The notes under the pieces are model-generated. The model searched no databases and was not told the DNA's origin. It saw nothing but the letters and a program-made list of their open reading frames with translations. DNA of 13,308 nucleotides, taken from Paracoccaceae bacterium. Lineage in GTDB: Bacteria > Pseudomonadota > Alphaproteobacteria > Rhodobacterales > Rhodobacteraceae. Both the position numbers and the translations under genes were made by a program. The stretch spans positions 1 to 13,308 of the forward strand of contig JAPOSK010000214.1 in assembly GCA_026709725.1 (NCBI GenBank). The letters are read 5' to 3'. Of the stretch, positions 1 through 13,308 are shown one piece after another (position 1 is the first letter of the stretch; each line of letters opens with the position of its first letter).

Positions 1-851
1 CCGGCAATCAATGGCAGTGCTGCGAAGCCCTTCAAATACGCCGGAACACCGACAGCGACTGCCGTCAGAACCGAAAGAGGACCCTGTCCACCGAGATGCG
101 CGGCCACCATCTCAGCGGGGATATAGGCGAGCATCAGACTCTCGACAAGAAATGCAAGCAGGAGCCATTTTCCCAGAAAGACCAGGGTCCCGCGAGCACT
201 TGCCAGGAACTCCGACCTGCGTGCGGCATCGCGCCAGAAGTTCCAGATAACGGGATCGGAATCATCAAGTGGGCTCAGGCCGCACCCTCCGCCCACTCCC
301 TGCCGCAATGGCGTATTGACAGGATATATTCTCAGAAGGAATTGCATGCCAAATCCTCCCAGCACACCCATCCCGAAGGCTGCAAGCGTCTTGCCGATCG
401 CGAAGTGCAGATCCAGAAGGGCGGTCGTCAGAATAAACATGGCAGGGTCCATCAGCGGGGAGGCCAGCCAGAATGCCATGACGGGTGCCAATGGCACCCC
501 CATGGCCAGGAGTGCGGCAATCAGGGGAATGACTCCGCAGGAACAAAAGGGCGAGAGCGCACCAAACAGGGCGGCAGCAACAATCATCATGACCATGCGT
601 CCCCGAAATATGCTGCCCAGATGATGTTCGATTCCAGTGGCACGGGCCGTAGCGACAGCACCGACGGAAAGGAGCAGGAAAGGCAGAATGCTCCAGAAAC
701 TCGCCATCGTCTGGATGAGACTTTGCCGCCCCTGTGCCGGATCAATCAGCCACACAGATCCCAGGAGGCATACGCTTGCCAGGAGAACCGGGTCAGGGGT
801 TCCGGCGCGCGGAACCAGAGATTGGATGGGTCTCCCCGGTATCGCCATCAT
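1..851 (-). CDS. Permease of the PF03773 (ArsP_1/DUF318) family, 3' end outside window
   Basis: A reading frame on the minus strand stays open for about 283 codons and runs off the window edge. It encodes a polytopic inner-membrane protein: hydrophobic stretches lie near residues 22-36, 50-68, 87-99, 107-140 and 153-170, with more near 220-240 and 260-280. The family signature SPFCSCGVIPL is at residues 100-110, followed by FWLASPLMDPAMF, both typical of PF03773 permeases. Characterised members export trivalent organoarsenicals (ArsP), and others are linked to metal or thiol homeostasis; the CSC motif fits a soft-metal substrate, but the substrate here is unknown. The start is the first ATG of an ATG-ATG pair, chosen because a TGA stop sits directly before it in the same frame. 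No good Shine-Dalgarno sequence is visible. No ArsR-type regulator or arsenic gene could be recognised beside it. The family is secure; the function is not. Confidence 0.85.
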   Translation of the reverse strand, partial: MMAIPGRPIQSLVPRAGTPDPVLLASVCLLGSVWLIDPAQGRQSLIQTMASFWSILPFLLLSVGAVATARATGIEHHLGSIFRGRMVMMIVAAALFGALSPFCSCGVIPLIAALLAMGVPLAPVMAFWLASPLMDPAMFILTTALLDLHFAIGKTLAAFGMGVLGGFGMQFLLRIYPVNTPLRQGVGGGCGLSPLDDSDPVIWNFWRDAARRSEFLASARGTLVFLGKWLLLAFLVESLMLAYIPAEMVAAHLGGQGPLSVLTAVAVGVPAYLKGFAALPLIA

Positions 852-1394
852 TCAACCCATATCCACAGGATACACTTGGAGCACAAGCCGCGGACAATCC
901 GCCTTCATGGACCTGACACAACAGTGATCAACGGTACAGCAACTGCAAGTCAGATATACAACCGGCCATCGCACGACAGGGCCGCTCTTTCAAAAGGATC
1001 TCCTGCCGCTGGAGAGCGTTATACCACAGGACCTGCATCAACAAGTACGGCGGGATGCCAAATTCCGTTCCCGATTGCCCGAATCCGCCAACGGGGCCGG
1101 TTCGCCCGATTCGTCAGATATGTCCGATTGCAGCAATTTTTGTGCAAGGCGGGAAACGGTGCAGGGTTCATGAGGACCCACTCCGTTTCTGCCGGACGAT
1201 TTTGTCACCGGGGAGACCAGAGCCCACAACCGCAAGGATAGATCGGGGAATACCTCTCTCCTCACGCCACTCCGACCGTATAGCAGGGATCGTCCTCAGG
1301 GGGAGTGTGGCAGAGTGTCAACCCTCTTCATGCACTCCGGCAAGAGTTTTCAGCAAGACGGCTTCCTGATCTCGGGGTGATCTTCCCGCCCCCG
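852..1394. other. 543-bp spacer without a recognisable gene
   Basis: No frame here gives a protein I recognise. The long plus-strand frame that crosses it is antisense to the permease and reads as low-complexity shadow. On the minus strand a short frame of about 35-40 codons ends with a TGA (852-854) that directly abuts the permease ATG. It is rich in cysteine (CSCC, then DHCC, then a further C) and could begin at a GTG near 973. It might be a leader peptide or the tail of a decayed metal-sensing regulator, but I have no homology to support either. Another minus-strand frame at 1038-1265 (75 codons) shows no family motif. Confidence 0.35.
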
Positions 1395-1414
1395 CTATCT
1401 CCCGGCGGGGCGGG
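1385..1414 (-). terminator. GC-rich hairpin at the 3' end of the ATPase pseudogene
   Basis: The plus strand reads CCCGCCCC at 1385-1392 and GGGGCGGG at 1407-1414, a perfect 8-bp stem with a 14-nt loop. The stop codon of the decayed ATPase gene (1395-1397) lies in the loop. No run of T follows on either strand, so it is at best a weak intrinsic terminator; it may be only a GC-rich palindrome. Confidence 0.3.
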
Positions 1415-2679
1415 ATGCAGTCTCAAGCCGCCCGGCTGCAACCAGATGCGTCCGGAAAGAAGGGATTGGGGCAGTGATGGTCCCGTCCGGCATCGTCTGC
1501 AGGGCCCCTTGGTGAATGAGATGGTCAGCCATCAGGTCTGCATCCATGCCTTTCGGAAGGCACCACTGCCGTCCGGGACATGCCTCCTCATATGCCATGA
1601 TGGAATTGATTATATCAAACCGCCGCTGACCCGGCATCAGATCACGCATCACAGCGGCCACGAGGGAGAGGGATGTCTGCATTGCTGGCGATTGCTGGCC
1701 CTGGTAGTAGTGGATGCGGCTTTCTGCTGCCTCTGCCTCAATCTGTTCCCAGTCCACACATGCAAGATCTCCCTCTGTCGCCAGCACTGCACGGCCCAGG
1801 GCCCGGAGGGCAAAGTGGAGATGTCGGGGCCAACCCTCGCAAGGCTCGGCCAGATGGGCAAGGGATGCATCATGACTCCCGCGGTCCATACCGAAATGGA
1901 CACAGAAGCCATGCATGAGGGATATGGCATCAGACGCGGGCAGGGCCCCAATAGGGTGGATCGTGAGGCCACGGGTGAGACCCATGGCAGCCATGCGGTC
2001 CGCGGTATCGCTGAGACCGGCGAGGACAAGGGTGAGGGGAAGGTTGCAGCCGTCATGGATGTCCTGAAACAGCTTCGCTAGCGGGTCCTCATTATCCCGC
2101 TTGAAACGCTGGGCCTCATCAATCGCGACGACGATGGGGTTCACAATCCCGGTGCCAGCCTCCAGCCCCCGGGTCCAGTCCCGGAAGGCGGTCAGAGTGG
2201 GTTGGGGGTCTGTATCCCATGACGCCAGCGCGCCTTTCCACAGTGCGGGTCCGGGTATAGCGGGAGAGGAATGCAGGTGCCGCATCGGGATTGACCAGTC
2301 GGGCCAGGGGGAAGAGGATGTCGGCGGGGCCGACAATGCGACCGGAGCCAAGGACGAGGATACGGGGAGTGGGGGTATGGGACAATGATGATTGGGGAGA
2401 GGATGCCCCGCTTGAAGATGACTGTGTTCGCGATTGCAGTGCGGCCAGGATGGAGCTCTTGCCGGCACCCGGGGCACCCTGGAGGATGCGGGTGGCACCG
2501 GGGAGCTGATGGTTGGCAATCACCTAGGACTCGTGGGCAATGTCAAGGATGTCCTGGAGAATATCACCCCGACCAACAAAGACCGGAGGGAGAGTTTTCT
2601 CACCGCGCCTTGTGAACTGTTCCAGTGCTTCCTTCCTGAACACGGTCTGTTCTCCCCCGCTGGCTTCATCCCCTCTCAT
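1395..2679 (-). pseudogene. Decayed AAA-type ATPase (P-loop ATP-binding protein)
   Basis: Three pieces on the minus strand together make one ATPase of about 425 residues. Piece one starts at the ATG at 2679 and reads 51 codons, including KEALEQF and PPVFVGRGDILQDIL, the N-terminal pattern of AAA proteins in this group. It is cut by a TAG at 2524-2526. The same frame then continues with the Walker A motif GAPGAGKSS and the segment RIVGPADILFPLARLVNPD. Near 2225-2260 the sense shifts to another frame (+1 relative to the reading direction), which supplies Walker B as VVAIDEAQ, then LTLVLAGLSD (sensor-1-like) and a long alpha-helical C-terminal half ending at 1395. Neither the stop nor the shift alone leaves a complete ATPase. 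An apparent 374-codon ORF beginning at 2519 is not an intact gene: its first ~90 residues are an out-of-frame Pro/Ser/His-rich reading of the Walker A region. The original function is not recognisable beyond nucleotide binding. Confidence 0.85.
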
Positions 2680-3149
2680 ATCTCAACCCCCGCTACAGGA
2701 ATCCGTGTGTGAGTGCCACTGGGAAGCATTATCAATCCATTGATCATTGACTGATGCAGTCTTCACATGATCTCGACTGATAACCCTCACACTCACAGAA
2801 TTTTTACCTTTCGTGGTCAATCCTCTCACATTCATTCAGCATTGTCTGGGACAATTCCTCATGGGGCGACCATGCCAAATCAGTGTTGGCATAACCTGGT
2901 CTTTACGCCCAAATTTGGCATGGTTTATCCCCTCGGGAGCCTCACTGGTGTGTGCAGGCCCCACCTTGCCGCTGTTTAATCCCGGAGTGTTGTTCCCCTG
3001 ACTGGAATTGGGGGATAAATCCTGTGCTCTGCACATCGAATGCAGGCAATTCGACCAAAAATCGTGATATGGAGAGAAATTTGTGGGGGGTTCGGGAAGA
3101 GAGGTTTACGAAAGTTGTCAAGTTTTTCTGGAGAAAAGAGGAGAGATCA
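2680..3149. other. 470-bp spacer between the ATPase pseudogene and the lyase
   Basis: This is the divergent upstream region of both neighbours. No frame resembles a known protein. It is more AT-rich than the flanking genes and carries small dyads: ATCAAT-CC-ATTGAT at 2731-2744 and the inverted-repeat cluster at 2870-2923 described separately. An ATG-initiated frame from 2952 continues into the lyase, but its first 66 codons resemble no part of that family and are treated as upstream sequence. I found no convincing -35/-10 pair. Confidence 0.4.
2870..2923. promoter_or_regulatory. Three-part inverted repeat, possible operator upstream of the lyase
   Basis: CCATGCCAAAT at 2870-2880 is the exact reverse complement of ATTTGGCATGG at 2913-2923, an 11-bp repeat with a 32-bp gap. 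A third element, TTGGCAT at 2886-2892, lies between and also pairs with the first copy (ATGCCAA at 2872-2878, 7-nt loop). One forward and two reverse sites spaced about 11-27 bp apart resemble an array of regulator binding sites, or two alternative hairpins. It lies about 230 bp upstream of the lyase start. The regulator is unknown. Confidence 0.4.
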
Positions 3150-4004
3150 ATGCGAGGAAAGCGACGTTCAGCACTCTATGTTCCTGGTACAAATGAACGT
3201 GCCTTGGCCAAAATCGGCAGTTTGCCGACGGACATGATCATACTGGATCTTGAAGACTCGATCGCACCATCCCGGAAAGCCGAGGCCCGTGACAGAATTC
3301 TTGACTTTGGCCGGGATCATGTGGACCGGCAGCGTGAATTCATATTGCGGCTGAATGCAGCCGATACGCCCTTTTGGCGGCAGGATCTTGCAATACTGGC
3401 GGGGTGCTCACTGCGTGCTGTCCTGCTTCCCAAAATCCGAACTGCAGAGGATGCAGGCCGTCAGTTGCGGGAGATTGAGAGTGTGGTCCCGGGATGCGGC
3501 GTCTGGTTCATGATGGAGACACCGGAATCGGTGTTCAATGCCCTGTCAATTGCCGCAGTCCGGCGGCACCATGAAAACGTTCAGGGGTTTGTTGTCGGGA
3601 CCAATGATCTGGCAAAGGACGCAGAGATTCAGCCGGATCGCAACCGGACCTATCTTGTATCATGGCTCATGCAGATTGTTCTTGCCGCCAAGGCATTTGA
3701 GCTTGATGTCATTGATGGGGTCTACAACGACATTGCCGATGCAGAGGGATTCCGGCTTGAAGCACTCCAGGGCAGAGCCATGGGAATGACAGGTAAATCC
3801 CTGATCCATCCAAACCAGATCGTGCCCACCAATGATATCTACTCACCTTCAAGGGATGAGATTGACAGGGCACGGCGGATTGTTGATGCATTCGCCGGAG
3901 AGGATGGTGATGATCGGGGTGTCCTGACGCTTGATGGGAAAATGGTCGAACGATTGCATCTTGTGCAGGCAGAGAAGGTTCTCGCGCGTGCGGGCGAGTT
4001 GTGA
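3150..4004 (+). CDS. HpcH/HpaI aldolase / citrate lyase family CoA-ester lyase
   Basis: This 284-residue protein belongs to the CitE/malyl-CoA lyase branch of the HpcH/HpaI TIM-barrel enzymes. These use a divalent metal to cleave or hydrolyse (hydroxy)acyl-CoA esters such as citryl-, malyl- or citramalyl-CoA. Family marks are ALYVPGTNERAL at residues 8-19, ILDLEDSIAP at 31-40, a conserved LRLN at 66-69, the acidic metal ligands in MMETP (Glu123) and GTNDLAKD (Asp153), KSLIHPNQ in the last third, and a C-terminal DGKMVE helix. The length fits CitE-like and (3S)-malyl-CoA thioesterase (Mcl2-like) proteins better than the longer malyl-CoA lyase. The start at 3150 is preceded by AGAGGAGAG at suitable spacing; an upstream ATG at 2952 would add 66 unrelated residues. 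No partner citrate-lyase subunit genes lie beside it, so a citrate lyase complex is unlikely. Exact substrate is unresolved. Confidence 0.85.
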   Translation: MRGKRRSALYVPGTNERALAKIGSLPTDMIILDLEDSIAPSRKAEARDRILDFGRDHVDRQREFILRLNAADTPFWRQDLAILAGCSLRAVLLPKIRTAEDAGRQLREIESVVPGCGVWFMMETPESVFNALSIAAVRRHHENVQGFVVGTNDLAKDAEIQPDRNRTYLVSWLMQIVLAAKAFELDVIDGVYNDIADAEGFRLEALQGRAMGMTGKSLIHPNQIVPTNDIYSPSRDEIDRARRIVDAFAGEDGDDRGVLTLDGKMVERLHLVQAEKVLARAGEL

Positions 4005-4071
4005 TACCGTCCATCTGGCAGGTCGACCGTTCTCATGGAGAAGGTTCTCGCGCGTGCGGGCGAGTTGTGAT
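3972..4071 (+). repeat. 34-bp direct repeat copying the 3' end of the lyase gene
   Basis: The last 33 bases of the lyase gene plus one following base (3972-4005) recur without mismatch at 4038-4071. The unit begins GAGAAGGTTCTCGCG and ends GAGTTGTGAT, so the codons for EKVLARAGEL and the stop codon are present twice. The offset of 66 bp is a multiple of three, so the second copy is in the same frame as the gene but lies beyond its stop. Each unit contains the small palindrome GAGAAGGTTCTC. It looks like a partial tandem duplication of the gene end. Confidence 0.9.
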
Positions 4072-4160
4072 CGTGGATGGCCGTGATTGATGTCCTGTTT
4101 TTGGTTCCCCGTGTCACCATGAAATCCGGCGGTCCACCATCCCACCGTCACTGAATCGAT

Positions 4161-4178
4161 GTCCCCGTGCACGGGGAC
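4161..4178. repeat. Perfect 18-bp palindrome
   Basis: GTCCCCGTGCACGGGGAC is identical to its own reverse complement. It resembles the stem of some type I-E CRISPR repeats, but only one copy exists in the window and there are no cas genes. It could act as a two-fold symmetric protein site or fold as a hairpin. No T-run follows. Confidence 0.5.
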
Positions 4179-4215
4179 GGGCGATGAGATCGGGCGCCCC
4201 GCCCGGAAGGGCCGG

Positions 4216-4252
4216 GATTCAGGGGCTGAACAGGGTTCCTGTGCCCTGAATC
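4216..4252. ncRNA. Nested stem-loop, possible structured RNA element
   Basis: GATTCAGGG at 4216-4224 pairs perfectly with CCCTGAATC at 4244-4252. Inside this 9-bp stem a second stem forms from ACAGG (4230-4234) and CCTGT (4238-4242) with loop GTT. The two coaxial stems with a small asymmetric bulge look like an RNA fold rather than a simple palindrome. Whether it is transcribed is unknown. Confidence 0.3.
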
Positions 4253-4440
4253 AGGCAGGATCCGTGATGCTGACCCGGAGTCTGTGACCGTTCGGGCGGG
4301 GGACCGGTTTCCGCAGATCGGCCCGGGGTGTGCGTGCGCCCGGACCATGGAGCTGGCCGGGTCCTGCTGAAAGGCCTCAGATGGCGGCATGGAGGGCTCT
4401 GTGACATTCCCTGATTTCTGCCATGAAAGGATCAGGAAAA

Positions 4441-4473
4441 CCCCGCCCCCGACATTGACCCGCAATGGCGGGG
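4441..4473. repeat. Nested inverted repeat (GC-rich hairpin)
   Basis: CCCCGCC at 4441-4447 pairs with GGCGGGG at 4467-4473. Within the loop, CATTG at 4453-4457 can pair with CAATG at 4463-4467, extending the fold, although the last base is shared with the outer stem. No T-run follows, so a terminator role is not supported. Confidence 0.4.
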
Positions 4474-4608
4474 CAGGCGTGTACCGCAGGGCGCCGATGG
4501 GAATGGATGCGTGTTCTTTATGGTTTTGGGGAAATACCTGAAAATCATGTCTTTGACGGAGTCGGGCCGGGTCAGACCACAGGCAGGTGGGAGAGTGTGG
4601 GCCGGGCC

Positions 4609-4627
4609 ATAAATTTATTGAATTAAA
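4609..4627. promoter_or_regulatory. AT-rich element upstream of ald
   Basis: A 19-bp stretch made almost only of A and T stands out in GC-rich surroundings, about 57 bp before the ald start. It begins with the perfect palindrome ATAAATTTAT (4609-4618) and continues TGAATTAAA. It may contain the promoter -10 region or a site for an Lrp/AsnC-type regulator, which commonly control alanine dehydrogenase genes. The sequence alone does not decide. Confidence 0.35.
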
Positions 4628-4683
4628 GCCAGTGAACGCCTACAACCCGATCAGGACTTTGCAGGGCTGGGGGAGAGAGCGAC

Positions 4684-5802
4684 ATGCTTATCGGAGTTCC
4701 AAGGGAAATCAAGGACCATGAGTACAGGGTTGGACTGACACCCGAGTCGGTCCATGAGATCGTCGCAGTGGATCATACCGTTATCGTCGAGACCAATGCC
4801 GGACAGGGTATCGGTTCTGATGATGAAGCCTATATCGGGGCAGGCGCAGAGATCGCACCATCCGCCGAAGAGGTCTTCGACCGCTGTGACATGATTATCA
4901 AGGTCAAGGAACCGCAGGCGGTCGAGCGCGCCATGCTGCGTGAAGACCAGATTCTGTTCACCTATCTGCACCTTGCGCCGGACGCGGAACAGACTGCGGA
5001 CCTCGTGAAGTCCGGTGCCATCTGCATTGCATATGAGACGGTTACTGATGGTGATGGCGGACTGCCGCTGTTGCGCCCGATGAGTCAGGTTGCGGGCCGG
5101 ATGTCGATTCAGGCTGGTGCCGGTGCTCTTGAGAAAGCCCGTGGTGGACGGGGTGTGCTCCTTGGCGGTGTTCCGGGGGTCAAGCCGGGCAGGGTGGTTA
5201 TTCTCGGTGGTGGTGTTGTCGGCTTCAATGCAGCCCAGATGGCTGCCGGGATGCAGGCGGATGTCATGATCCTTGACAGGAATCCGGTCGTTCTGGAATC
5301 CCTGAATACGCATTTCGGTGCTGCTGCAAAAACGGCCTTTTCGACACAAGCGGTGCTGAGGGAAGCGGTTCTGGCGGCCGATCTGGTCATTGGCGCAGTT
5401 CTGATCCCGGGGGCATCAACGCCAAAACTCGTCACGCGCAGTCTGGTCAGTGAGATGAAGCCGGGAGCGGTCATCGTCGATGTTGCGGTTGATCAGGGGG
5501 GCTGTTTTGCAACAACCAGAGCCACCACTCATGCCGATCCGACTTATGTGGTTGATGAAGTCGTGCACTATTGCGTTGCGAACATGCCGGGTGCGGTGGC
5601 ACGGACTTCAACCTATGCGCTGAACAATGTGACCGTCCCGCATGCACTGGCAATCGCCAACCACGGCTGGCGGCAGGCACTCTCGTTCAATCGCCATCTG
5701 CTGGCGGGTCTGAATGTGATTCGCGGGACAGTGACCTACAGGGCAGTGGCTGATGAGTTGGGGTATGACTATGTTGCTCCGGAGCACTGGATCATCGGTT
5801 GA
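4684..5802 (+). CDS. ald: Alanine dehydrogenase (EC 1.4.1.1)
   Basis: Catalyses the reversible NAD-dependent oxidative deamination of L-alanine to pyruvate and ammonia in the cytosol. The 372-residue length is normal for the family. The key residues are at the positions known from characterised enzymes: Arg15 and Lys75 for substrate binding (EYRVG; IKVKEP), catalytic His96 in TYLHLAPD, and Asp270 in VAVDQGGCF. The Rossmann dinucleotide loop GGGVVG is at 175-180, with Asp198 at the end of the next strand selecting NAD. The N-terminal MLIGVPREIK is typical. The ATG is preceded by GGGGAGAGA at good spacing. The gene is monocistronic as far as seen: a long spacer lies upstream and a convergent guanine deaminase gene 29 bp downstream. 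The AT-rich element at 4609-4627 is a candidate control site. Confidence 0.97.
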   Translation: MLIGVPREIKDHEYRVGLTPESVHEIVAVDHTVIVETNAGQGIGSDDEAYIGAGAEIAPSAEEVFDRCDMIIKVKEPQAVERAMLREDQILFTYLHLAPDAEQTADLVKSGAICIAYETVTDGDGGLPLLRPMSQVAGRMSIQAGAGALEKARGGRGVLLGGVPGVKPGRVVILGGGVVGFNAAQMAAGMQADVMILDRNPVVLESLNTHFGAAAKTAFSTQAVLREAVLAADLVIGAVLIPGASTPKLVTRSLVSEMKPGAVIVDVAVDQGGCFATTRATTHADPTYVVDEVVHYCVANMPGAVARTSTYALNNVTVPHALAIANHGWRQALSFNRHLLAGLNVIRGTVTYRAVADELGYDYVAPEHWIIG

Positions 5803-5832
5803 AATCCGGGCGATCGTGCCTGCCGCCGGATT
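5803..5832. terminator. Hairpin between convergent ald and guaD
   Basis: AATCCGG at 5803-5809 pairs with CCGGATT at 5826-5832, filling the whole gap between two convergent genes; the arms touch the two stop codons. A symmetric stem in this place may serve transcripts from both strands. There is no T-run, and the 16-nt loop is long, so terminator strength is doubtful. Confidence 0.35.
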
Positions 5833-7130
5833 CAGCCCCTGTTGATCCGGCGGCCTGCGATCCAGACATCAAGAATGGCACGATCATCCCCCATCATGAT
5901 GGTTGGAAACAGCAACTCCCAGATGTCGTCTGCATGATTGGCGGCGGCCTCAATATCGGGGCGGGAGTGGGGATCAATGATGACGAGGTCGGCTTCGAGG
6001 CCAGGGGCCAGATTGCCGATATGCATTTGCATCTGCAGTATGGTGGCATTGCCGATGGTCGCAAGCCAGAGGAGTTGGGCAGGGTGGAGCGGAGCGTTGG
6101 TCAATTGACTGATTTCATATGCGGCAGCCATCGTGTGCAGCATGGAGAACGACGATCCGCCGCCAATGTCAGTGGCGAGGCCGACAGGCAGACCGGCGGC
6201 TTTCGCAGCGCGAACGGGGAGAAGCCCGGAACCGATGAACATGTTTGAGGTCGGGCAGTGAATAATGGCACCACCGGACTCCCGCAGGCGTGCTTTTTCA
6301 CGGTCCGCAAGATGGATCGCATGGCCATAGAGGCCACCCGCACCGAGAAGTCCAAAATGTTCGTAGATATGCAGATAGTCGGAGAAGTTCGGGTAGAGCG
6401 TGCGGACCCAGTCAATCTCCTCGCGTTGCTCGGAGAGGTGAGTCTGCATCAGGCATTCGGGATGCTCGGCCCAAAGGGTTCCAAGTGCAGCCAGTTGATC
6501 CGGCGAGGATGTTGGTGCAAAGCGCGGTGTGATTGCATAGGTCAGCCGGCCGACTCCATGCCACCTGTCGATGAGGGATTTGCTGTTGTCGTAAGCTGAT
6601 TGGGGCGTGTCCTGCAGGGCAGTGGGGACATTCCGGTCCATACAGGTCAGACCACCCGCGACCCGCAGATTCTGCGTATGGCATTCGGTCATGATGGCAT
6701 CAGCGCTTGCAGGGTGACTGGTGCAGAATGTTGAGAAACTGGTCGTGCCATTGCTCAGGATAGTCCTGACGAATTGCCGGGCAATGCTGCGGGCATATGC
6801 TTCGCTGTCGAATTTTGACTCTTCCGGGAATGTGTACCGTTGAAGCCAGTCGATCAGCCGTGCCCCCCAACTGCCGATAATGGCCGTTTGCGGGTAGTGG
6901 ACATGAGCATCGATAAATCCGGCTGTCACGATGGCGGTTCCGTAGTCCCTGACTGTGGCCGCGGGGTGGGTTTTGCGCAGGTGGTCGGCTGAACCGAGAT
7001 CGGCAATCCTGCCGTTTGCGATCAGGACAGCACCATGGGGATCATGTCTCGCAGCCTCGGCAGGGGATCCAAGAAAGGGATCACCGGTGAATGACAGGGT
7101 CTGGCCGAGCAGGAGTGTGGATGATGACAT
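5832..7130 (-). CDS. guaD: Guanine deaminase (EC 3.5.4.3)
   Basis: Hydrolyses guanine to xanthine and ammonia, a step of purine salvage and catabolism. The 432-residue protein is an amidohydrolase-superfamily enzyme with the usual length of bacterial guanine deaminases. The zinc-binding pair is His76 and His78 in GFIDAHVHYPQ; the further metal/catalytic residues are His231 in MQTHLSE, His270 in YGHAIHL and Asp321 in ATDIGGGSSFSML. The DAHVHYPQ and GGGSSFSM forms are specific to guanine deaminases rather than to cytosine deaminases or SAH deaminases. The start at 7130 gives the expected N-terminus, but no Shine-Dalgarno sequence is visible before it. It is divergent from mgtE with a 132-bp spacer and convergent with ald. 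No xanthine dehydrogenase or purine transporter gene is in view. Confidence 0.93.
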   Translation of the reverse strand: MSSSTLLLGQTLSFTGDPFLGSPAEAARHDPHGAVLIANGRIADLGSADHLRKTHPAATVRDYGTAIVTAGFIDAHVHYPQTAIIGSWGARLIDWLQRYTFPEESKFDSEAYARSIARQFVRTILSNGTTSFSTFCTSHPASADAIMTECHTQNLRVAGGLTCMDRNVPTALQDTPQSAYDNSKSLIDRWHGVGRLTYAITPRFAPTSSPDQLAALGTLWAEHPECLMQTHLSEQREEIDWVRTLYPNFSDYLHIYEHFGLLGAGGLYGHAIHLADREKARLRESGGAIIHCPTSNMFIGSGLLPVRAAKAAGLPVGLATDIGGGSSFSMLHTMAAAYEISQLTNAPLHPAQLLWLATIGNATILQMQMHIGNLAPGLEADLVIIDPHSRPDIEAAANHADDIWELLFPTIMMGDDRAILDVWIAGRRINRG

Positions 7131-7262
7131 GATTCAGGCGACCGGGGCCGTGGATGTGCGGAGAGGGAGGCCGGGAATTGAGACTGCGTGAACTGTAATC
7201 ATGGGTCAAAATGCTTTACGTGTCGAGTGTGATGATGACATGATGACTGGATGGAGATCGGA

Positions 7263-8642
7263 ATGGCAATCCAAACCACGGGTCTGACCAACCATGACCA
7301 ATCCTGCCACCTGCGCCCTCAGTTGATCGAGAGCATAATCGTGGCGGTTGCCGAGGGCAACAAATCAGAATTCATGCGCCTGATTGACCCTTTGCACGAA
7401 GCCGATATCGCCGATCTTCTCGAACAGATCAATCCGGAACAGCGCAACCGGTTGATTGAGCTCTGGGGTGGGGATTTTGGCATTGATGTCCTGTCTGAAC
7501 TTGAGGAGAGCCTGCGCAAGGAGGTGATTGACCGGATCACGCCCGAGCAGTTTGCCGACACAGTCAGTGATCTGGAAGCCGACGATATTGTCGATATCGT
7601 TGAAGATCTTGATCGCGAACAGCAGAGTATCATCCTTTCCGGGCTTGAGCGAAGTGACCGGGCGGTCATTCGCATGTCTCTCAGCCTGCCTGAGAACAGT
7701 GCCGGCCGGCTGATGCAGCGTCGCTTTGTTTCGGTGCCGGAATACTGGAATGTGGGTCAGACCATTGATGCACTTCGTTCACGCGATGACCTTCCGGATG
7801 ATTTTCATCACGTGATTCTTGTCACGCCCCGCATGTCACCAACCGGTCAGGTCGCGCTTGGACGCATCATGGCATCGGCACGGGATCGCAGACTGAATGA
7901 TCTTCTGGAGCGGGATTTCCGGGTGATCCCCATTACCCAGGACCAGAAGGATGTCGCGTACATATTCAACCAGTATCATATGATTTCGGCGCCGGTTGTC
8001 GACGAAACCAACCGGCTGGTTGGTGTCATCACCATTGATGATGCCATGTCAATGCTTGAGGAGGAGGCGCATGAGGATATCCTGCGGCTGGCCGGTGTCG
8101 GCGATGAAAGTCTCACGCATCGTGTCTTCACGATCACTCGGCAGCGATTGCCCTGGCTCCTCATCAATCTGGGCACGGCAATTCTGGCCTCACTGGTGAT
8201 CGCGCAGTTCGCTGACACGATCGAGGCTCTCGTTGCGCTGGCTGTTCTGATGCCGATTGTCGCATCGATGGGTGGCAATGCAGGAACCCAATCCCTGACA
8301 GTTGCCGTTCGCTCTCTGGCGACACGGGATTTGACCTCAGCCAATCTGTGGCGCATTATTCGACGGGAGGGTCTCGTTGGCCTCCTCAACGGAGTCATTT
8401 TTGCCCTGATCATTGGCGGCATCGGGATTCTCTGGTTCGGTGATCTCGCTCTTGGCATCATTCTGGCGAGTGCGATGATCATCACGATGATCGCCGCCGG
8501 CCTCTCCGGAATTGCGATCCCGATCGGATTGGAGCGCGTTCGCATCGATCCGGCCATTGCCTCGAGTGTCTTTGTGACAACAGTGACCGATGTTGTCGGA
8601 TTCTTCGCCTTTCTTGGTATCGCAACAGTCTTTCTTCTGTAG
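7263..8642 (+). CDS. mgtE: Magnesium transporter MgtE
   Basis: An inner-membrane Mg2+ channel of 459 residues. It has an acidic, all-helical MgtE N domain (about residues 20-125) with repeated EADIADLLEQ/EADDIVDIVEDL-type motifs, then two CBS domains (about 130-255) that sense cytoplasmic Mg2+, a connecting plug helix, and five membrane segments from about residue 285 to the end. The pore signature PIVASMGGNAGTQSL is present, as is the conserved pore Asp in FVTTVTDVVGFF. I place the start at 7263 because GGAG at 7253-7256 lies 6 nt before it; an ATG at 7251 in the same frame would add four residues and overlaps that ribosome site. It is convergent with the mutase gene (97-bp gap). No M-box-like leader is recognisable in the short upstream region. 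Confidence 0.95.
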   Translation: MAIQTTGLTNHDQSCHLRPQLIESIIVAVAEGNKSEFMRLIDPLHEADIADLLEQINPEQRNRLIELWGGDFGIDVLSELEESLRKEVIDRITPEQFADTVSDLEADDIVDIVEDLDREQQSIILSGLERSDRAVIRMSLSLPENSAGRLMQRRFVSVPEYWNVGQTIDALRSRDDLPDDFHHVILVTPRMSPTGQVALGRIMASARDRRLNDLLERDFRVIPITQDQKDVAYIFNQYHMISAPVVDETNRLVGVITIDDAMSMLEEEAHEDILRLAGVGDESLTHRVFTITRQRLPWLLINLGTAILASLVIAQFADTIEALVALAVLMPIVASMGGNAGTQSLTVAVRSLATRDLTSANLWRIIRREGLVGLLNGVIFALIIGGIGILWFGDLALGIILASAMIITMIAAGLSGIAIPIGLERVRIDPAIASSVFVTTVTDVVGFFAFLGIATVFLL

Positions 8643-8739
8643 AATCGTTGCAGTCAGGAAAGACGGGCGCGGACGCTGTTCACCATCTGCGAACCGGGCG
8701 CGGCATCATCAGGAGGGATCATGACAACGGTTTGTGCGC

Positions 8740-10872
8740 TTACAGACGACTGGAATTCCTGATCAATTGCAGGACTTGTGCGGCTGCTTTGGGAATGTTT
8801 GTTCCGGGGCCAAAGATGGCACTGACTCCGGCATCATAGAGCTGCTGGTAGTCCTGTCTGGGAATCACGCCCCCGCAAACGACAAGGATATCATCCATTC
8901 CCAACCGATGGAGTTCCCTGATCAATGCCGGGGCCAAGGTTGAGTGACCGGCAGCCTGGGTGCTGATTCCGACAACATGCACATCATTGTCGATTGCATC
9001 GCGGGCGGTTTCTTCGGGTGTCTGGAACAGTGGCCCGATATCGACATCAAACCCGAGATCGGCAAAAGCGGTTGCGATCACCTTGGCGCCCCGATCATGG
9101 CCGTCCTGCCCCATCTTGGCAACAAGCAGCCGTGGGCGTCGACCGGCATCTTTGGCAAATTCCCGAACGGCTTCCTGGGCGGCGGCAAACTCGGGACTGT
9201 CGCCCGTGGTCTGGCTGTAGATCCCTGAGAGAGTCCGAATGCTGGCCTGATAGCGACCGAAGACCCTCTCCATGGCAAGTGAGATCTCGCCAATGCTGGC
9301 CCGGCACCGGGCGGCCTCAATCGCACTTTCGAGCAGGTTGCCATTGCCGACCGCGACATTTTCAAGGGCTTTCAGGGCGGATTGACACGCCGCTTCATCA
9401 CGATTGGCGCGGAGTTCAGTCAGGCGGTCCACCTGACGCGCCCTGACCTTGCTGTTATCGATGTTCCGGCAGGAAATCGTTGTGTCATCATCCGTGGTGT
9501 ATTTGTTCACACCGACGATGGTCTCGTCGCGTTTGTCAACCATGGCCTGGCGGCGGGCAGCAGTTTCCTCAATTCGCAATTTGGGCAATCCCGAGGCCAC
9601 CGCACGGGTCATGCCGCCCTGTTCATCAATCTCGGCGATGAGTTTCCAGGCTTCATCGCTGAGTTCCCTCGTCAGCGATTCAACGAAATAGGAACCTGCC
9701 AGCGGATCAATCGTGTCGCAGACACCTGTCTCCTCCTGAAGGATCAGCTGGGTGTTGCGGGCAATACGGGCCGAGAACTCGGTCGGCAGGGCGATGGCTT
9801 CATCAAGTGCATTTGTGTGCAGGGATTGTGTTCCACCAAGGACGGCAGCGAGGGCTTCGTAAGCTGTTCGAACGACATTGTTGTAGGGATCCTGTTCCTG
9901 AAGACTGACACCGCTGGTCTGACAGTGGGTCCGCAACATCCGGGAGCGTGGATCGGAGGGGTCGAACTCATCCATGATTGTCGACCACATCAACCGTGCG
10001 GCACGCAGTTTGGCCACTTCCATGAAGAAATTCATGCCAATGGCGAAAAAGAACGACAGCCGGCCGGCAAACGCATCAATATCAAGGCCGCGCGCAAGCG
10101 CAGCACGGACATACTCCCGGCCATTGGCAAGGGTATAGGCCAACTCCTGAACGATATTCGCTCCTGCCTCCTGCATATGGTAGCCCGAGATCGATATCGA
10201 ATTGAATTTGGTCATGTTGCGGCTTGTGAATTCGATGATGTCGGCCACGATCCTCAGTGAGGGTTCGGGAGGATAGACGTAGGTGTTGCGGACCATGAAT
10301 TCCTTGAGAATATCGTTCTGGATCGTCCCGGCGAGATCCTGCATTGCCACGCCCTGCTCCTCACCTGCGACGATGTAGTAGGCAAGAGTCGGGATCACTG
10401 CCCCGTTCATGGTCATCGAAACCGAGACTCGGTCAAGCGGAATGCCCTCGAAGAGAATCTTCATGTCCTCAATGCTGTCAATGGCCACACCGGCCATGCC
10501 CACATCACCCGACACGCGCTCGTGATCGCTGTCGTAACCGCGATGGGTTGCGAGGTCAAAGGCAACAGAAATGCCCTGTTGACCCGCAGCCAGGGCCCTG
10601 CGATAGAACTGATTGGATTCCTCGGCAGTCGAGAATCCGGCATACTGACGGATCGTCCAGGGGCGGTTTGTGTACATTGTGGCTCGAGGACCGCGGACAA
10701 AGGGTGCCATGCCAGGGAACATGCCCCGCTCATCCCCCGACAGATCATCCGCTGTATAGAGCGGCTTGATTGTGATTCCTTCCAGCGTTCCGGTCTTGAT
10801 GCTGGCCAGCGGTTGACCACGGAGTTCACGCTCTGCCAAATCTTTCCAGATCTCATAACTCATAGGGTCCAT
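8740..10872 (-). CDS. mcm: Methylmalonyl-CoA mutase, large (catalytic) chain with B12 domain (EC 5.4.99.2)
   Basis: Interconverts (R)-methylmalonyl-CoA and succinyl-CoA with adenosylcobalamin, the last step of propionyl-CoA assimilation. The ~710-residue chain has the full catalytic TIM barrel and the C-terminal cobalamin-binding domain. Marks are TIRQYAGFS with the catalytic Tyr77, [10 protein letters not shown] with the catalytic His, and the B12 base-off motif DGHDRG followed by [12 protein letters not shown] and CGGVIP. The TIRQYAG form argues for methylmalonyl- over ethylmalonyl-CoA mutase. The ORF stays open to 10911, but those extra codons (MLRESACGR) are read from the 69-bp dispersed repeat, so they are not native. 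The start is at 10872 or at the next ATG, 10863; the ribosome site is poor for both. No small mutase subunit or MeaB chaperone gene is next to it, so it probably acts as a homodimer. The gene is convergent with mgtE. Confidence 0.95.
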
Positions 10873-10886
10873 CCCGCCATGCAGTC

Positions 10887-10955
10887 TGCCGCACGCAGAC
10901 TCCCGTAGCATGTCTATACCGAAGCACCATTCCAGGCAATCCCTGAAACCATACC
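10887..10955 (+). repeat. 69-bp direct repeat, copy 1
   Basis: An ungapped match to 12896-12964 with 63 of 69 identical bases. It begins TGCCGCACGCAGACTCCCGT and ends CAATCCCTGAAACCATACC. The 5' edge in this copy forms the hairpin GTCTGC-cgcac-GCAGAC (10884-10900). A weaker match (CCATG plus scattered bases) extends 10 bp to the left. It lies immediately upstream of the mutase start, on the side facing the AlbA_2 gene. Confidence 0.9.
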
Positions 10956-11006
10956 GTCAATCTGCGACCCGAACATCCTCGTATCACAGAGATTCCGCGC
11001 GCTGGA

Positions 11007-11012
11007 TATAAT
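11007..11012 (+). promoter_or_regulatory. Candidate -10 box for the AlbA_2/ATPase gene
   Basis: A perfect TATAAT lies 139 bp upstream of the GTG start, with TG four bases before it but no good -35 at 17 bp. A TTGACA at 11015-11020 with a poor -10 (CAATCT) after 17 bp is an alternative. Neither is strong evidence alone. Confidence 0.3.
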
Positions 11013-11081
11013 TCTTGACATTTGACCGCTGAGTGAACAATCTCTGAGCGGCTTCTCCGCGAACGGCTGACTGACCAGCAG

Positions 11082-11101
11082 GGCCGGAGATTCTCCAGGC
11101 C
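11082..11101 (+). promoter_or_regulatory. Palindrome in the leader of the AlbA_2/ATPase gene
   Basis: GGCC-GGAGA-T-TCTCC-A-GGCC forms a near-perfect dyad of 9 paired bases per arm, ending 50 bp before the GTG start. It may be an operator for self-control or a hairpin in the 5' leader. A second weaker dyad (CCGCT with AGCGG) lies just upstream around 11026-11051. Confidence 0.35.
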
Positions 11102-11151
11102 ATGAGTTTTTCATGCCGGAAGTGAGATCGCAAAATCCAGGAGACTGCGCT

Positions 11152-12891
11152 GTGATTCCGAATGATAACGAGATCCTCAAGCAACTCCGTTTGGGTGAGG
11201 ACAGTCGTTGGGAATTCAAGCAGGTTGAGTTCAGGGGAAGCAGGCCTGTCAACCCGCGCAGGGACGATCTTGCGGATGAACTCGGTGCATTTGCCAATGC
11301 GCGGGGCGGGATCATGCTTTGTGGCATAACTGATGATGGCATGATCCAGGGGCTGACGCGTGAGCAGTTGGCAGCATTGAATGACTTGCTGGTGGAAATC
11401 GGTACGGACAGACTTGATCCTCCGCTCCGTATCCATGTCCATCATAGGGAGATTGATGGCAAGGCATTTGTGCTGGCGGTCATTCCGCGCGGCGAAGCAC
11501 GCCATTCAAGGGATGGACAGGCGTTCATTCGTGTTGGTGCCAGCAAACGTCGCCTCAACGAGGATGAAAGTCTCAGGCTGGCACAAAACCGTGCTCAGAA
11601 CCGGTATCTCTGGTTCGACAAGCAGATTGTTCCCGAGACAGGTTTCAACACACTTGACGAGCGCCTCTGGGAACCTCTGCTGAGTAAAGCCAGTGCGGCC
11701 GACCCGCGACGGGGATTAATCGGGCTGCGGCTTCTTGCGCGTGATGAAGCCGGGATCGACCGTGCCACGGTCGCAGGAATACTGCTTTGCACGTATTCTC
11801 CTCAGGACTGGTTGCCGCAGGCGATGATCACGGCGACGCATTATCCCGGCCTTGATCGAACATCCGGCCAACTGGACGCACGGGAGATCACAGGCCCGCT
11901 TCCATTGCAGATCAAGGATGCTGTCGATTTTGTTATTCGCAATATGCGTGTCTCCGCACACAAGTCACCTGCACGGGAAGATCGTCCCCAGTATCGCAAA
12001 TCCGCGGTTTTTGAAGCCATCGTCAATGCGGTTGCGCATCGGGATTACTCAATCCGCTCGCGAAGAATTCGCCTGTCCATGTTCGAGGATCGTCTGGAGA
12101 TCGACTCGCCGGGCGCGCTTCCAAACGGCATCAGCCTTGAAGGCATGGAGGCAAGCCAGTCAACCCGTAATGAAGTGGTCACGTCTGTTTTTGGCCGCAT
12201 TCCTGTCGCCAGTGTGGCCGGGTCGGATCATCGTGTGTGCCTGATGGAGCGGAGGGGAGACGGGGTCTCAATTATCCGCAATGAGACCAGAGAGGCATCC
12301 GGCATATTGCCGGAATACGAACTGATTGATGAATCGAGCCTTGTGCTCCGTATTCCTGCCGCCAAACTGGAAGCCGTTCCTGCTGATGCAACCGTCACAG
12401 TCCATTCCGGGGGTGAGCCGCTTCCTGGCATTGAAGTCCTTGCGCTCTTTCCAAACAAGACCTGGACGCCAGCCATGACCGATGCGGCTGGTGATGCGAG
12501 ACTGAACCTGTACACAACGAATCTGCCAATGGTGATCTATGCTGCAGGTGTCGGCTATGCGGCTGGACTTGAACGGGAATGGATACCTGATCAGGGTGGA
12601 TTGATGCTTGACCTCGAGCCGCTTCACATTGGCGGATCAGCAGTTTTTTCAGGAGGAACAGGGCATCTTCCCGGATTAAACGGTCGACTGAACCCCATGC
12701 TTGATACGTCTGATCGCACCTATCTGTACGCTGACAATATCGCGATTGATGAAGGGCGAACGCAACCCGTACCCTTTCGCCTCGGAAAACCGATGCGCCT
12801 GACGGACGCTTCCGGTGCCGAACTTTCCATAACGATTATCGATATGATTGGACGCTCATCCCTCCTCGAATATCGACCGGTTCAACCATGA
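11152..12891 (+). CDS. AlbA_2 (Schlafen-type) domain protein with GHKL ATPase and C-terminal beta domain
   Basis: A 579-residue three-part protein. Residues about 8-135 match the AlbA_2 (PF04326) fold: an acidic EDSRWEFK motif (Glu16, Glu21, Lys23), then GAFANARGG and CGITDDGMIQGL. Residues about 280-385 match a GHKL/HATPase_c_4 ATPase: the N-box EAIVNAVAHRDYS, DRLEIDSPGALPNG and ERRGDGV. The last ~175 residues are beta-rich, with VTVHSGGEPLPGIEV resembling a carboxypeptidase-regulatory-like Ig fold and a final module containing GHLPGLNGRLNP, DRTYLYADNIAI and IGRSSLLEYRP. AlbA_2/ATPase proteins are often called transcriptional regulators and also occur in defence islands; Schlafen relatives are RNA-cleaving. 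I chose GTG at 11152 because AGGAGA at 11139-11144 is ideally placed; ATG at 11113 would add 13 residues without a ribosome site. The gene stands alone between two copies of a 69-bp repeat, which hints at a mobile cassette. Confidence 0.85.
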   Translation: MIPNDNEILKQLRLGEDSRWEFKQVEFRGSRPVNPRRDDLADELGAFANARGGIMLCGITDDGMIQGLTREQLAALNDLLVEIGTDRLDPPLRIHVHHREIDGKAFVLAVIPRGEARHSRDGQAFIRVGASKRRLNEDESLRLAQNRAQNRYLWFDKQIVPETGFNTLDERLWEPLLSKASAADPRRGLIGLRLLARDEAGIDRATVAGILLCTYSPQDWLPQAMITATHYPGLDRTSGQLDAREITGPLPLQIKDAVDFVIRNMRVSAHKSPAREDRPQYRKSAVFEAIVNAVAHRDYSIRSRRIRLSMFEDRLEIDSPGALPNGISLEGMEASQSTRNEVVTSVFGRIPVASVAGSDHRVCLMERRGDGVSIIRNETREASGILPEYELIDESSLVLRIPAAKLEAVPADATVTVHSGGEPLPGIEVLALFPNKTWTPAMTDAAGDARLNLYTTNLPMVIYAAGVGYAAGLEREWIPDQGGLMLDLEPLHIGGSAVFSGGTGHLPGLNGRLNPMLDTSDRTYLYADNIAIDEGRTQPVPFRLGKPMRLTDASGAELSITIIDMIGRSSLLEYRPVQP

Positions 12892-12895
12892 TCCC

Positions 12896-12964
12896 TGCTG
12901 CACGCAGACTCCCGTACCATGTCTGCACCCAAGCACCATTCCGGGCAATCCCTGAAACCATACC
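12896..12964 (+). repeat. 69-bp direct repeat, copy 2
   Basis: Same orientation as copy 1 at 10887-10955 and offset by exactly 2009 bp, with six substitutions and no gap. It starts 4 bp after the stop codon of the AlbA_2/ATPase gene; the weaker leftward extension (CCATG) overlaps the stop itself. The short hairpin of copy 1 is reduced here to CTGC-tgcac-GCAG. Confidence 0.9.
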
Positions 12965-13148
12965 ATGGGAGCGACTTTCATTGAAAACCGAAAAACAGGG
13001 ATCGCGCACACATGTGATATTGAATAAAATAAACAGCCAACCCTTGTTAGGCCCCGTTGACACCCACCGTGCCGCAATCACCCCGGCCATCCGATCAATG
13101 ACGGCCGGAACGCCCGCCACCCCCCGCCTGCCCGCATCCCAATCCCCC

Positions 13149-13177
13149 GGAACGCCCCGCATTCGCCAGGGCGTTCC
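13149..13177. repeat. Perfect 9-bp inverted repeat
   Basis: GGAACGCCC at 13149-13157 and GGGCGTTCC at 13169-13177 form a 9-bp stem with an 11-nt loop. A further copy of the left arm lies at 13107-13115, so alternative pairing is possible. No T-run follows. Confidence 0.5.
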
Positions 13178-13201
13178 CGATCGGGTGCCGCCGGCTGTAC
13201 A

Positions 13202-13279
13202 GATCCCGGTCAGGCTCCCCATCACGGTCCGTCTCCTTCGGGCTGGAATGACGGTCCCGATTGCCTGTACCCCGGGATC
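13202..13279. repeat. Long interrupted stem-loop with TTCG tetraloop
   Basis: Paired arms occur in nested order: GATCCCGG (13202-13209) with CCGGGATC (13272-13279), CAGGC (13211-13215) with GCCTG (13263-13267), and CCGTC with GACGG further in. A CC-TTCG-GG tetraloop lies near the centre. The nesting supports a real RNA or cruciform fold of about 78 nt. Its identity is unknown. Confidence 0.4.
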
Positions 13280-13308
13280 GGCAGGCGGACCGTTCACCCC
13301 TCCGGCCC

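Follow-up and report, generated by a model that had tools for sequence, protein, structure and literature searches.

Accessory genes that lie between short repeats of the same orientation invite comparison with two familiar arrangements. The attC sites of integron gene cassettes are marked by a motif pair (RYYYAAC ... GTTRRRY), and genomic islets or islands can be flanked by direct repeats after their insertion. How single defense genes enter and exit genomes without a recombinase of their own is poorly understood. The closest counterparts of the protein discussed here are RNases of the Schlafen family from bacteria that carry a minimal histidine-kinase domain and have been described beside BREX systems (PMC12839542).

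The stretch of DNA that we analyzed (13,308 nucleotides, hereafter the window) carries a Schlafen AlbA_2 and GHKL (HATPase_c_4) gene on the plus strand (positions 11113 to 12891). Its neighbor is a methylmalonyl-CoA mutase gene on the minus strand (open reading frame 8740 to 10911), whose start was placed at 10863 based on the sequence and on the N termini of its relatives. An initial annotation of this DNA described two 69-bp direct repeats that enclose a single complete gene with its leader, and both the repeats and their contents were confirmed. Positions 10887 to 10955 and 12896 to 12964 are identical at 63 of 69 sites, without gaps and in the same orientation, and runs of 21, 17, and 12 nucleotides match perfectly. 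Among the other 69-base comparisons of same-orientation segments across the window, at offsets of at least 70, the best reaches only 38/69, and the pair thus stands well above chance expectation. The alignable stretch extends to 79 nucleotides (69/79 identical), and its 70-base core is 91.4% identical. Neither copy has an assigned strand. Copy 1 (10877 to 10955, core 10886 to 10955) is located in the mutase gene leader, 14 to 23 bp upstream of the mutase start. Copy 2 (12886 to 12964) aligns from 12886 onward, across the AlbA_2 stop codon (12889 to 12891), and its core begins at 12895 and ends at 12964. The reported proximity of the repeats to the start of one gene and the stop of the other is therefore correct.

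The AlbA_2 gene is the only complete gene between the copies, and its reading frame is intact. Its likely start is GTG 11152, which yields a protein of 579 amino acids that ends at 12891, and the alternative start ATG 11113 yields 592 amino acids. The leader of the gene (10956 to 11151, plus strand) also lies inside the bracket and contains one promoter-like site (10983 to 11012), which is not above the shuffled expectation.

Our preferred explanation, to which we assign a probability of about 0.5, is that a Schlafen-type gene was acquired in the intergenic region next to the mutase gene and that the repeats are copies of the mutase leader made when the module entered, likeliest by Campbell-type recombination. 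We infer the route of entry, the identity of the original copy, and the defense function. A search of the literature by title and by the start of the abstract returned no report of such an arrangement; bioRxiv and most subscription journals lie outside the coverage of that search, and we do not claim that the arrangement is absent from print.

Cassettes, dispersed repeats, and structured elements as readings of the repeat

A different account would make this gene a mobile single-gene cassette whose 70-bp sites are acted on by a recombinase, as are integron-like attC sites, the att sites of tyrosine recombinases, or the ends of elements like IS200/IS605. The gene and its leader are indeed found between same-orientation sites, the second of which lies at the stop codon, and the combination of one gene with a ~70-bp site of constant orientation is what integron gene cassettes display. 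Unlike those cassettes, however, neither copy is framed by the attC motif pair: none of the motif is present at copy 1 (within 15 bp on either side), and the same search at copy 2 recovers only one heptamer, at 12880 to 12886 in the end of the gene, which is read on both strands. Furthermore, none of the four matches to the integron integrase model TIGR02249 in the ~80% complete assembly exceeds the cut-off, and the genes concerned, two in number, are located outside the contig of the window (on C10 and C208). We rejected an integron cassette on these two grounds. The sites were also found only at this locus, and the sequences of the other brackets described below are unrelated to them. Units like IS200/IS605 have subterminal hairpins that a Y1 transposase recognizes, and hairpins are predicted in both copies, with z-scores from -0.9 to -3.8. 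Overall, we consider this account highly unlikely.

The comparison with repeat-flanked islets is likewise partial. The locus is similar to them in having an accessory gene between same-orientation repeats at a variable position, but the element consists of a single gene and its copies are 9% diverged. No integrase is encoded inside the element, whose lone gene has AlbA_2 and HATPase_c_4 domains. Integrase-borne islets have an identical att core at each end, often within a tRNA gene. The two copies share one identical block of 21 bp, and the 13,308-nucleotide window contains no tRNA, which speaks against a tRNA-borne att site.

The repeat is a private two-copy sequence in the assembly searched (3.15 Mb in 634 contigs, about 80% complete). 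Two copies were found by BLAST, and a covariance model trained on the pair again recovered two at an E-value limit of 10. These counts bear on a proposal of the initial annotation that the repeats belong to a dispersed intergenic family and flank the gene by chance. Although this genome does hold dispersed repeats, of which the IS5-like remnant that ends the contig is one, no third copy was found anywhere in the assembly by either method. This result excludes a dispersed family for the sequence searched, which is about 80% of the genome, and we leave the proposal a very small chance.

Searches in other genomes, which the annotation had suggested, found no counterpart of the 69-bp unit. The repeat is absent from 60 other genomes searched as relatives, and among 394 genomes of the family (its own included; drawn from a larger group) it occurs only in its own genome. 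The 393 others gave just two matches, of 20 and 24 bases, which we take as chance. The exact 21-base core, the longest identical block shared by both copies, occurs in one GTDB contig, from Aestuariibaculum suncheonense, and this occurrence was also attributed to chance because nothing aligns past the 21 bases. The exact core is absent from the viral contigs searched, and the repeat has no match in phages and plasmids at an E-value of 0.01. Likewise, these searches revealed no site at which one repeat stands without the gene or at which the repeats flank a different gene. An active single-gene cassette is not supported, since neither an empty nor a refilled site was found and the repeat is missing from relatives.

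Alternatively, the repeat could be a functional element that is used twice, for instance as a structured leader RNA of the mutase gene or an operator of the AlbA_2 protein, rather than a scar of insertion. Copy 1 is part of the mutase leader, and its minus strand folds better than shuffled sequences (z = -3.8). The common minus-strand fold observed over 84 nucleotides was equaled in 2.8% or 0.1% of simulated pairs, according to direction. However, 20% and 1.9% of simulations were as good over 79 nucleotides, as were 57 to 60% over the 70-nucleotide core. The minus strand of copy 2 is unremarkable (z = -0.94), and the plus strands give z-scores of -2.5 and -2.0. Such unequal values across copies and strands indicate that the folding measure is noisy. 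On the plus strand over 84 nucleotides, an equally good shared fold arose in 27% and 36% of simulated pairs, and single-sequence energies reached equally low values in just 1.6% and 4.9% of simulations. A known RNA family at the repeats was rejected because none of the three weak Rfam matches obtained up to an E-value of 5 lies near them. In addition, the repeat was not found upstream of the mutase genes of relatives. The outcome depends on the boundaries chosen, and we therefore retain a conserved RNA solely as a rival idea; use of the repeat as an element in both places seems quite unlikely.

The AlbA_2/GHKL gene and its predicted product

The protein has a SLFN_AlbA_2 domain (PF04326; E-value of 5.1e-16, 59.7 bits versus a cut-off of 25.3), followed by a HATPase_c_4 domain, and its C-terminal ~185 residues have no Pfam match. 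In a search of the Protein Data Bank with a profile of 14 sequences, the best match was the uncharacterized protein 3lmm (E-value of 4.5e-7), followed by SLFN12 (4e-4), SLFN14 (0.018), and 5yd0 (0.054). The last of these is labeled Schlafen 8 and was deposited as the rSLFN13-N structure. In this weak match (E-value of 0.054), residues E16, E21, and D61 (counted from 11152) align with E205, E210, and D248 of SLFN13, after correction for an offset of 13 between the 5yd0 chain and the published numbering that was worked out in this analysis. E16 and D61 are invariant among the 14 proteins, and E21 is present in at least 90% of them. Mutation of these three residues of SLFN13 is reported to diminish RNA cleavage, and the E205A and E210A variants are reported to be inactive (PMC5862951). 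Based on the Schlafen domain and the aligned acids, the protein probably acts as an RNase against phages, with the GHKL domain as a sensor; this is the likeliest function as judged from sequence.

This predicted architecture resembles that of the BREX-associated proteins in that an AlbA_2 domain with an aligned SLFN-like acidic triad precedes HATPase_c_4. Where a wHTH is described for those proteins (PMC12839542), the protein described here has the ~185 C-terminal residues mentioned above. A Pfam scan of eight open reading frames of the window detected no BREX gene.

A protein search yielded at least 4,940 passing sequences among 8,000 scored candidates. Among the best 120 listed, one protein (P0002) begins at the position equivalent to GTG 11152 and, start residue aside, differs from the window protein only at residue 51. 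Another (P0001) is 71% identical over 76% of the length; by eye, this relative of 859 amino acids has the middle of the AlbA_2/GHKL protein repeated. The remaining ones (P0003 to P0120) are 71 to 77% identical over 96 to 99% of the length, and the few source names given for them include Gammaproteobacteria, Rhodobacteraceae, and Bryobacterales. The gene was not found on plasmids at an E-value of 1e-50. Phages gave only partial matches of 26 to 28% in four records, and viral contigs gave one relative at 30%. The GC content of the AlbA_2 gene (55.5%, versus 56.9% for the mutase gene) is uninformative.

The mutase locus and a proposed origin of the bracket

We compared the mutase locus of nine relatives, of which eight belong to the genus and one (G022) is an additional genome. 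The initial annotation had considered that relatives might all carry the gene at this site without the repeats. Instead, an AlbA_2 gene between the mutase gene and the divergent DUF4174 gene is absent in all nine. Seven of the nine have, upstream of the mutase gene, a divergent gene followed by a gene for 667 to 674 amino acids from one cluster, and the divergent gene encodes DUF4174 in both members scanned (G002 and G008). In G002, the DUF4174 gene is followed by other genes. In G008, the mutase and DUF4174 genes are ~9 kb apart, and the interval (L095, C50, positions 3085 to 11747) contains two open reading frames, each of which matches one half of a type IIG restriction-methyltransferase, and also encodes a PLD/SNF2 helicase and a DUF932 protein. 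Direct repeats do not flank this island. G007 carries a distinct AlbA_2 paralog (36% identity) on the other side of its mutase gene. In the genome of the window, the DUF4174 gene was not found, and the 667-amino-acid neighbor has matches of at most 53% identity only.

The absence of the gene from all nine relatives, together with the island in the same interval of G008, indicates that the region upstream of the mutase gene is an insertion-prone spot in the genus and that the AlbA_2 gene was acquired there. A candidate defense gene of the Schlafen type would therefore be placed at such a spot beside a conserved metabolic gene. The cassette proposal of the initial annotation accordingly holds in its accessory part, given that the gene is also patchy across the genus, whereas its working-cassette part is not supported for the reasons given above.

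The region beyond copy 2 begins with an A+T-rich stretch (12965 to 13046, no strand assigned; 42% GC over 12965 to 13043), which is possibly the original upstream region of the mutase gene. Next is a remnant similar to the 3' end of an IS5-family transposase (13047 to 13308, minus strand), and the sequence past copy 2 is known as far as the contig end inside this remnant. The remnant has 10 further occurrences in the assembly at an E-value of 8e-9 or better, some of them at contig ends, and may therefore cause contig breaks. One occurrence (L068 on C59) matches the IS5-family transposase model NF033580 at an E-value of 1.6e-10, which is below the cut-off. By eye, the remnant begins at a YTAG motif.

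Under our preferred explanation, incoming DNA would have carried the gene together with a short stretch that matched the target in the mutase leader. A single crossover of the Campbell type at the leader would then produce the order target, gene, target. After insertion, copy 1 would have stayed with the mutase gene and copy 2 with the A+T-rich stretch, and the copies would have diverged subsequently, reaching 9% over the 70-base core. This divergence implies either that the event is old or that the incoming copy was already different. Deletion of the gene by recombination between the copies is conceivable, but no excision was observed, and with this divergence the copies would have ceased to be maintained as a site of exchange. 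Neither a donor nor an empty site was seen in the genomes searched. The mutases of relatives are only 71 to 73% identical, and for this reason the leader as it was before insertion is unreadable in them.

Brackets elsewhere in this genome and around other AlbA_2 genes

We also compared 101 of the 634 contigs of this genome (1,028,673 bases) with themselves, three of which were chosen because they carry AlbA_2 genes. Brackets were defined as two-copy direct-repeat pairs of 60 to 250 bp with an identity of at least 85% and a separation of more than 500 bp. One contig (L151), which is crowded with pairs whose identity does not exceed 85.0%, was left out. Three pairs exceed the thresholds: the one in the window (70 bp, 91.4%), one on C16 (71 bp, 91.5%), and one on C67 (208 bp, 85.6%). 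Weaker or shorter pairs occur at 12 or more kinds of place. All three brackets hold accessory modules with defense-type proteins, although only three cases are available and "defense-like" was judged after the genes had been seen.

The C16 bracket (L112, positions 331 to 5159) encloses a TrlF-family ATPase gene (494 bits versus a cut-off of 350) and a short AlbA_2/HATPase_c_4 gene. It is thus similar to the window in having an AlbA_2/HATPase_c_4 gene within a ~70-bp direct-repeat bracket. However, this TrlF and AlbA_2 pair, like another on C35 of G005, is a two-gene module with a shorter AlbA_2 type and an unrelated repeat. By eye, a repeated element of ~138 bp with inverted ends directly follows the second repeat on C16. 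The C67 bracket (L166, positions 2541 to 4661) encloses genes for TcmP and DUF5131, which match the PADLOC candidates PDC-M41A and PDC-M41B. Its repeat is the 3' end of an upstream type III-like methyltransferase gene, which is intact on one side and present as a decayed copy on the other. This combination of an intact gene and a decayed, displaced gene end fits insertion by a single crossover, and we infer the same for the window. No match was found among the three repeat sequences. Private repeats that differ from module to module make a dedicated site of recombination less likely and favor duplication of the target at insertion.

Taken further, these brackets raise the possibility that defense modules of this lineage enter or exchange at unrelated sites without a module-borne recombinase, duplicating a 70- to 210-bp target into a private repeat pair. 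The window, C16, and C67 would all be products of this process, and modules could afterwards be lost cleanly by way of their brackets. We regard this generalization as speculative and doubtful. Regardless, three short two-copy brackets in a third of the assembly, all with defense-type modules, constitute a countable signature. Their recurrence in this genome goes beyond the single repeat pair reported initially and is the part that is worth following.

When an interval as long as the C16 bracket is placed at random, it takes in any of the five other AlbA_2 genes in 1.6% of trials, and the value for the C67 span is 0.7%. Among the six AlbA_2 matches in this genome, two are bracketed and one (on C24) is not, and three are on contigs of only 3.9 to 7.0 kb, which might truncate a bracket. 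In other genomes, none of seven ortholog loci from six genomes (G002, G022, G005, G003, G424, and two in G324) has a bracket of this kind; at one of these loci (C131 of G324), the flank is truncated. The best direct repeats there are matches of 28 bp (C119 of G003) and 23 bp (G424), and seven more distant loci (L009, L010, and L015 to L019) yielded one 19-bp match.

Bracketing is not a general feature of AlbA_2 genes, given that just one of 29 AlbA_2 loci from other genomes is bracketed (L199 on C27 of G002; 179 bp, 90%, 6.9 kb apart). That bracket holds the AlbA_2 gene plus genes that by eye read like sugar-nucleotide enzymes. Four of the 29 loci have direct repeats of at least 30 bp that are at least 300 bp apart. 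The pairs in G007 (L057, 107 bp) and G022 (L058, 608 bp at 64%, between neighboring related open reading frames) do not enclose the AlbA_2 remnant. In the sole control, nine mutase loci that total 110 kb, one 43-bp pair was found.

At the C35 locus of G005 (L206, positions 412 to 5824), part of the AlbA_2 gene is present again on the far side of TrlF (772 bp, 92%). It lends some credence to an origin of the bracket as a remnant of tandem duplication or rearrangement, in which a larger repeat-bearing unit was duplicated and then lost in part, so that the gene came to lie between two repeats with no insertion driven by recombination. Another direct duplication, of 1.58 kb at 97% identity, is present on C29 of the genome studied here. 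However, no second copy of the AlbA_2 gene or its leader, even a partial one, adjoins either repeat in the window, and the mutase reading frame is intact. We therefore view such a remnant as unlikely and continue to favor acquisition of the gene with copying of the mutase leader. The window contains one other direct repeat, an exact 34-bp sequence (3972 to 4071) whose copies are 66 bp apart from start to start, located at and just past the end of the HpcH/HpaI aldolase gene.
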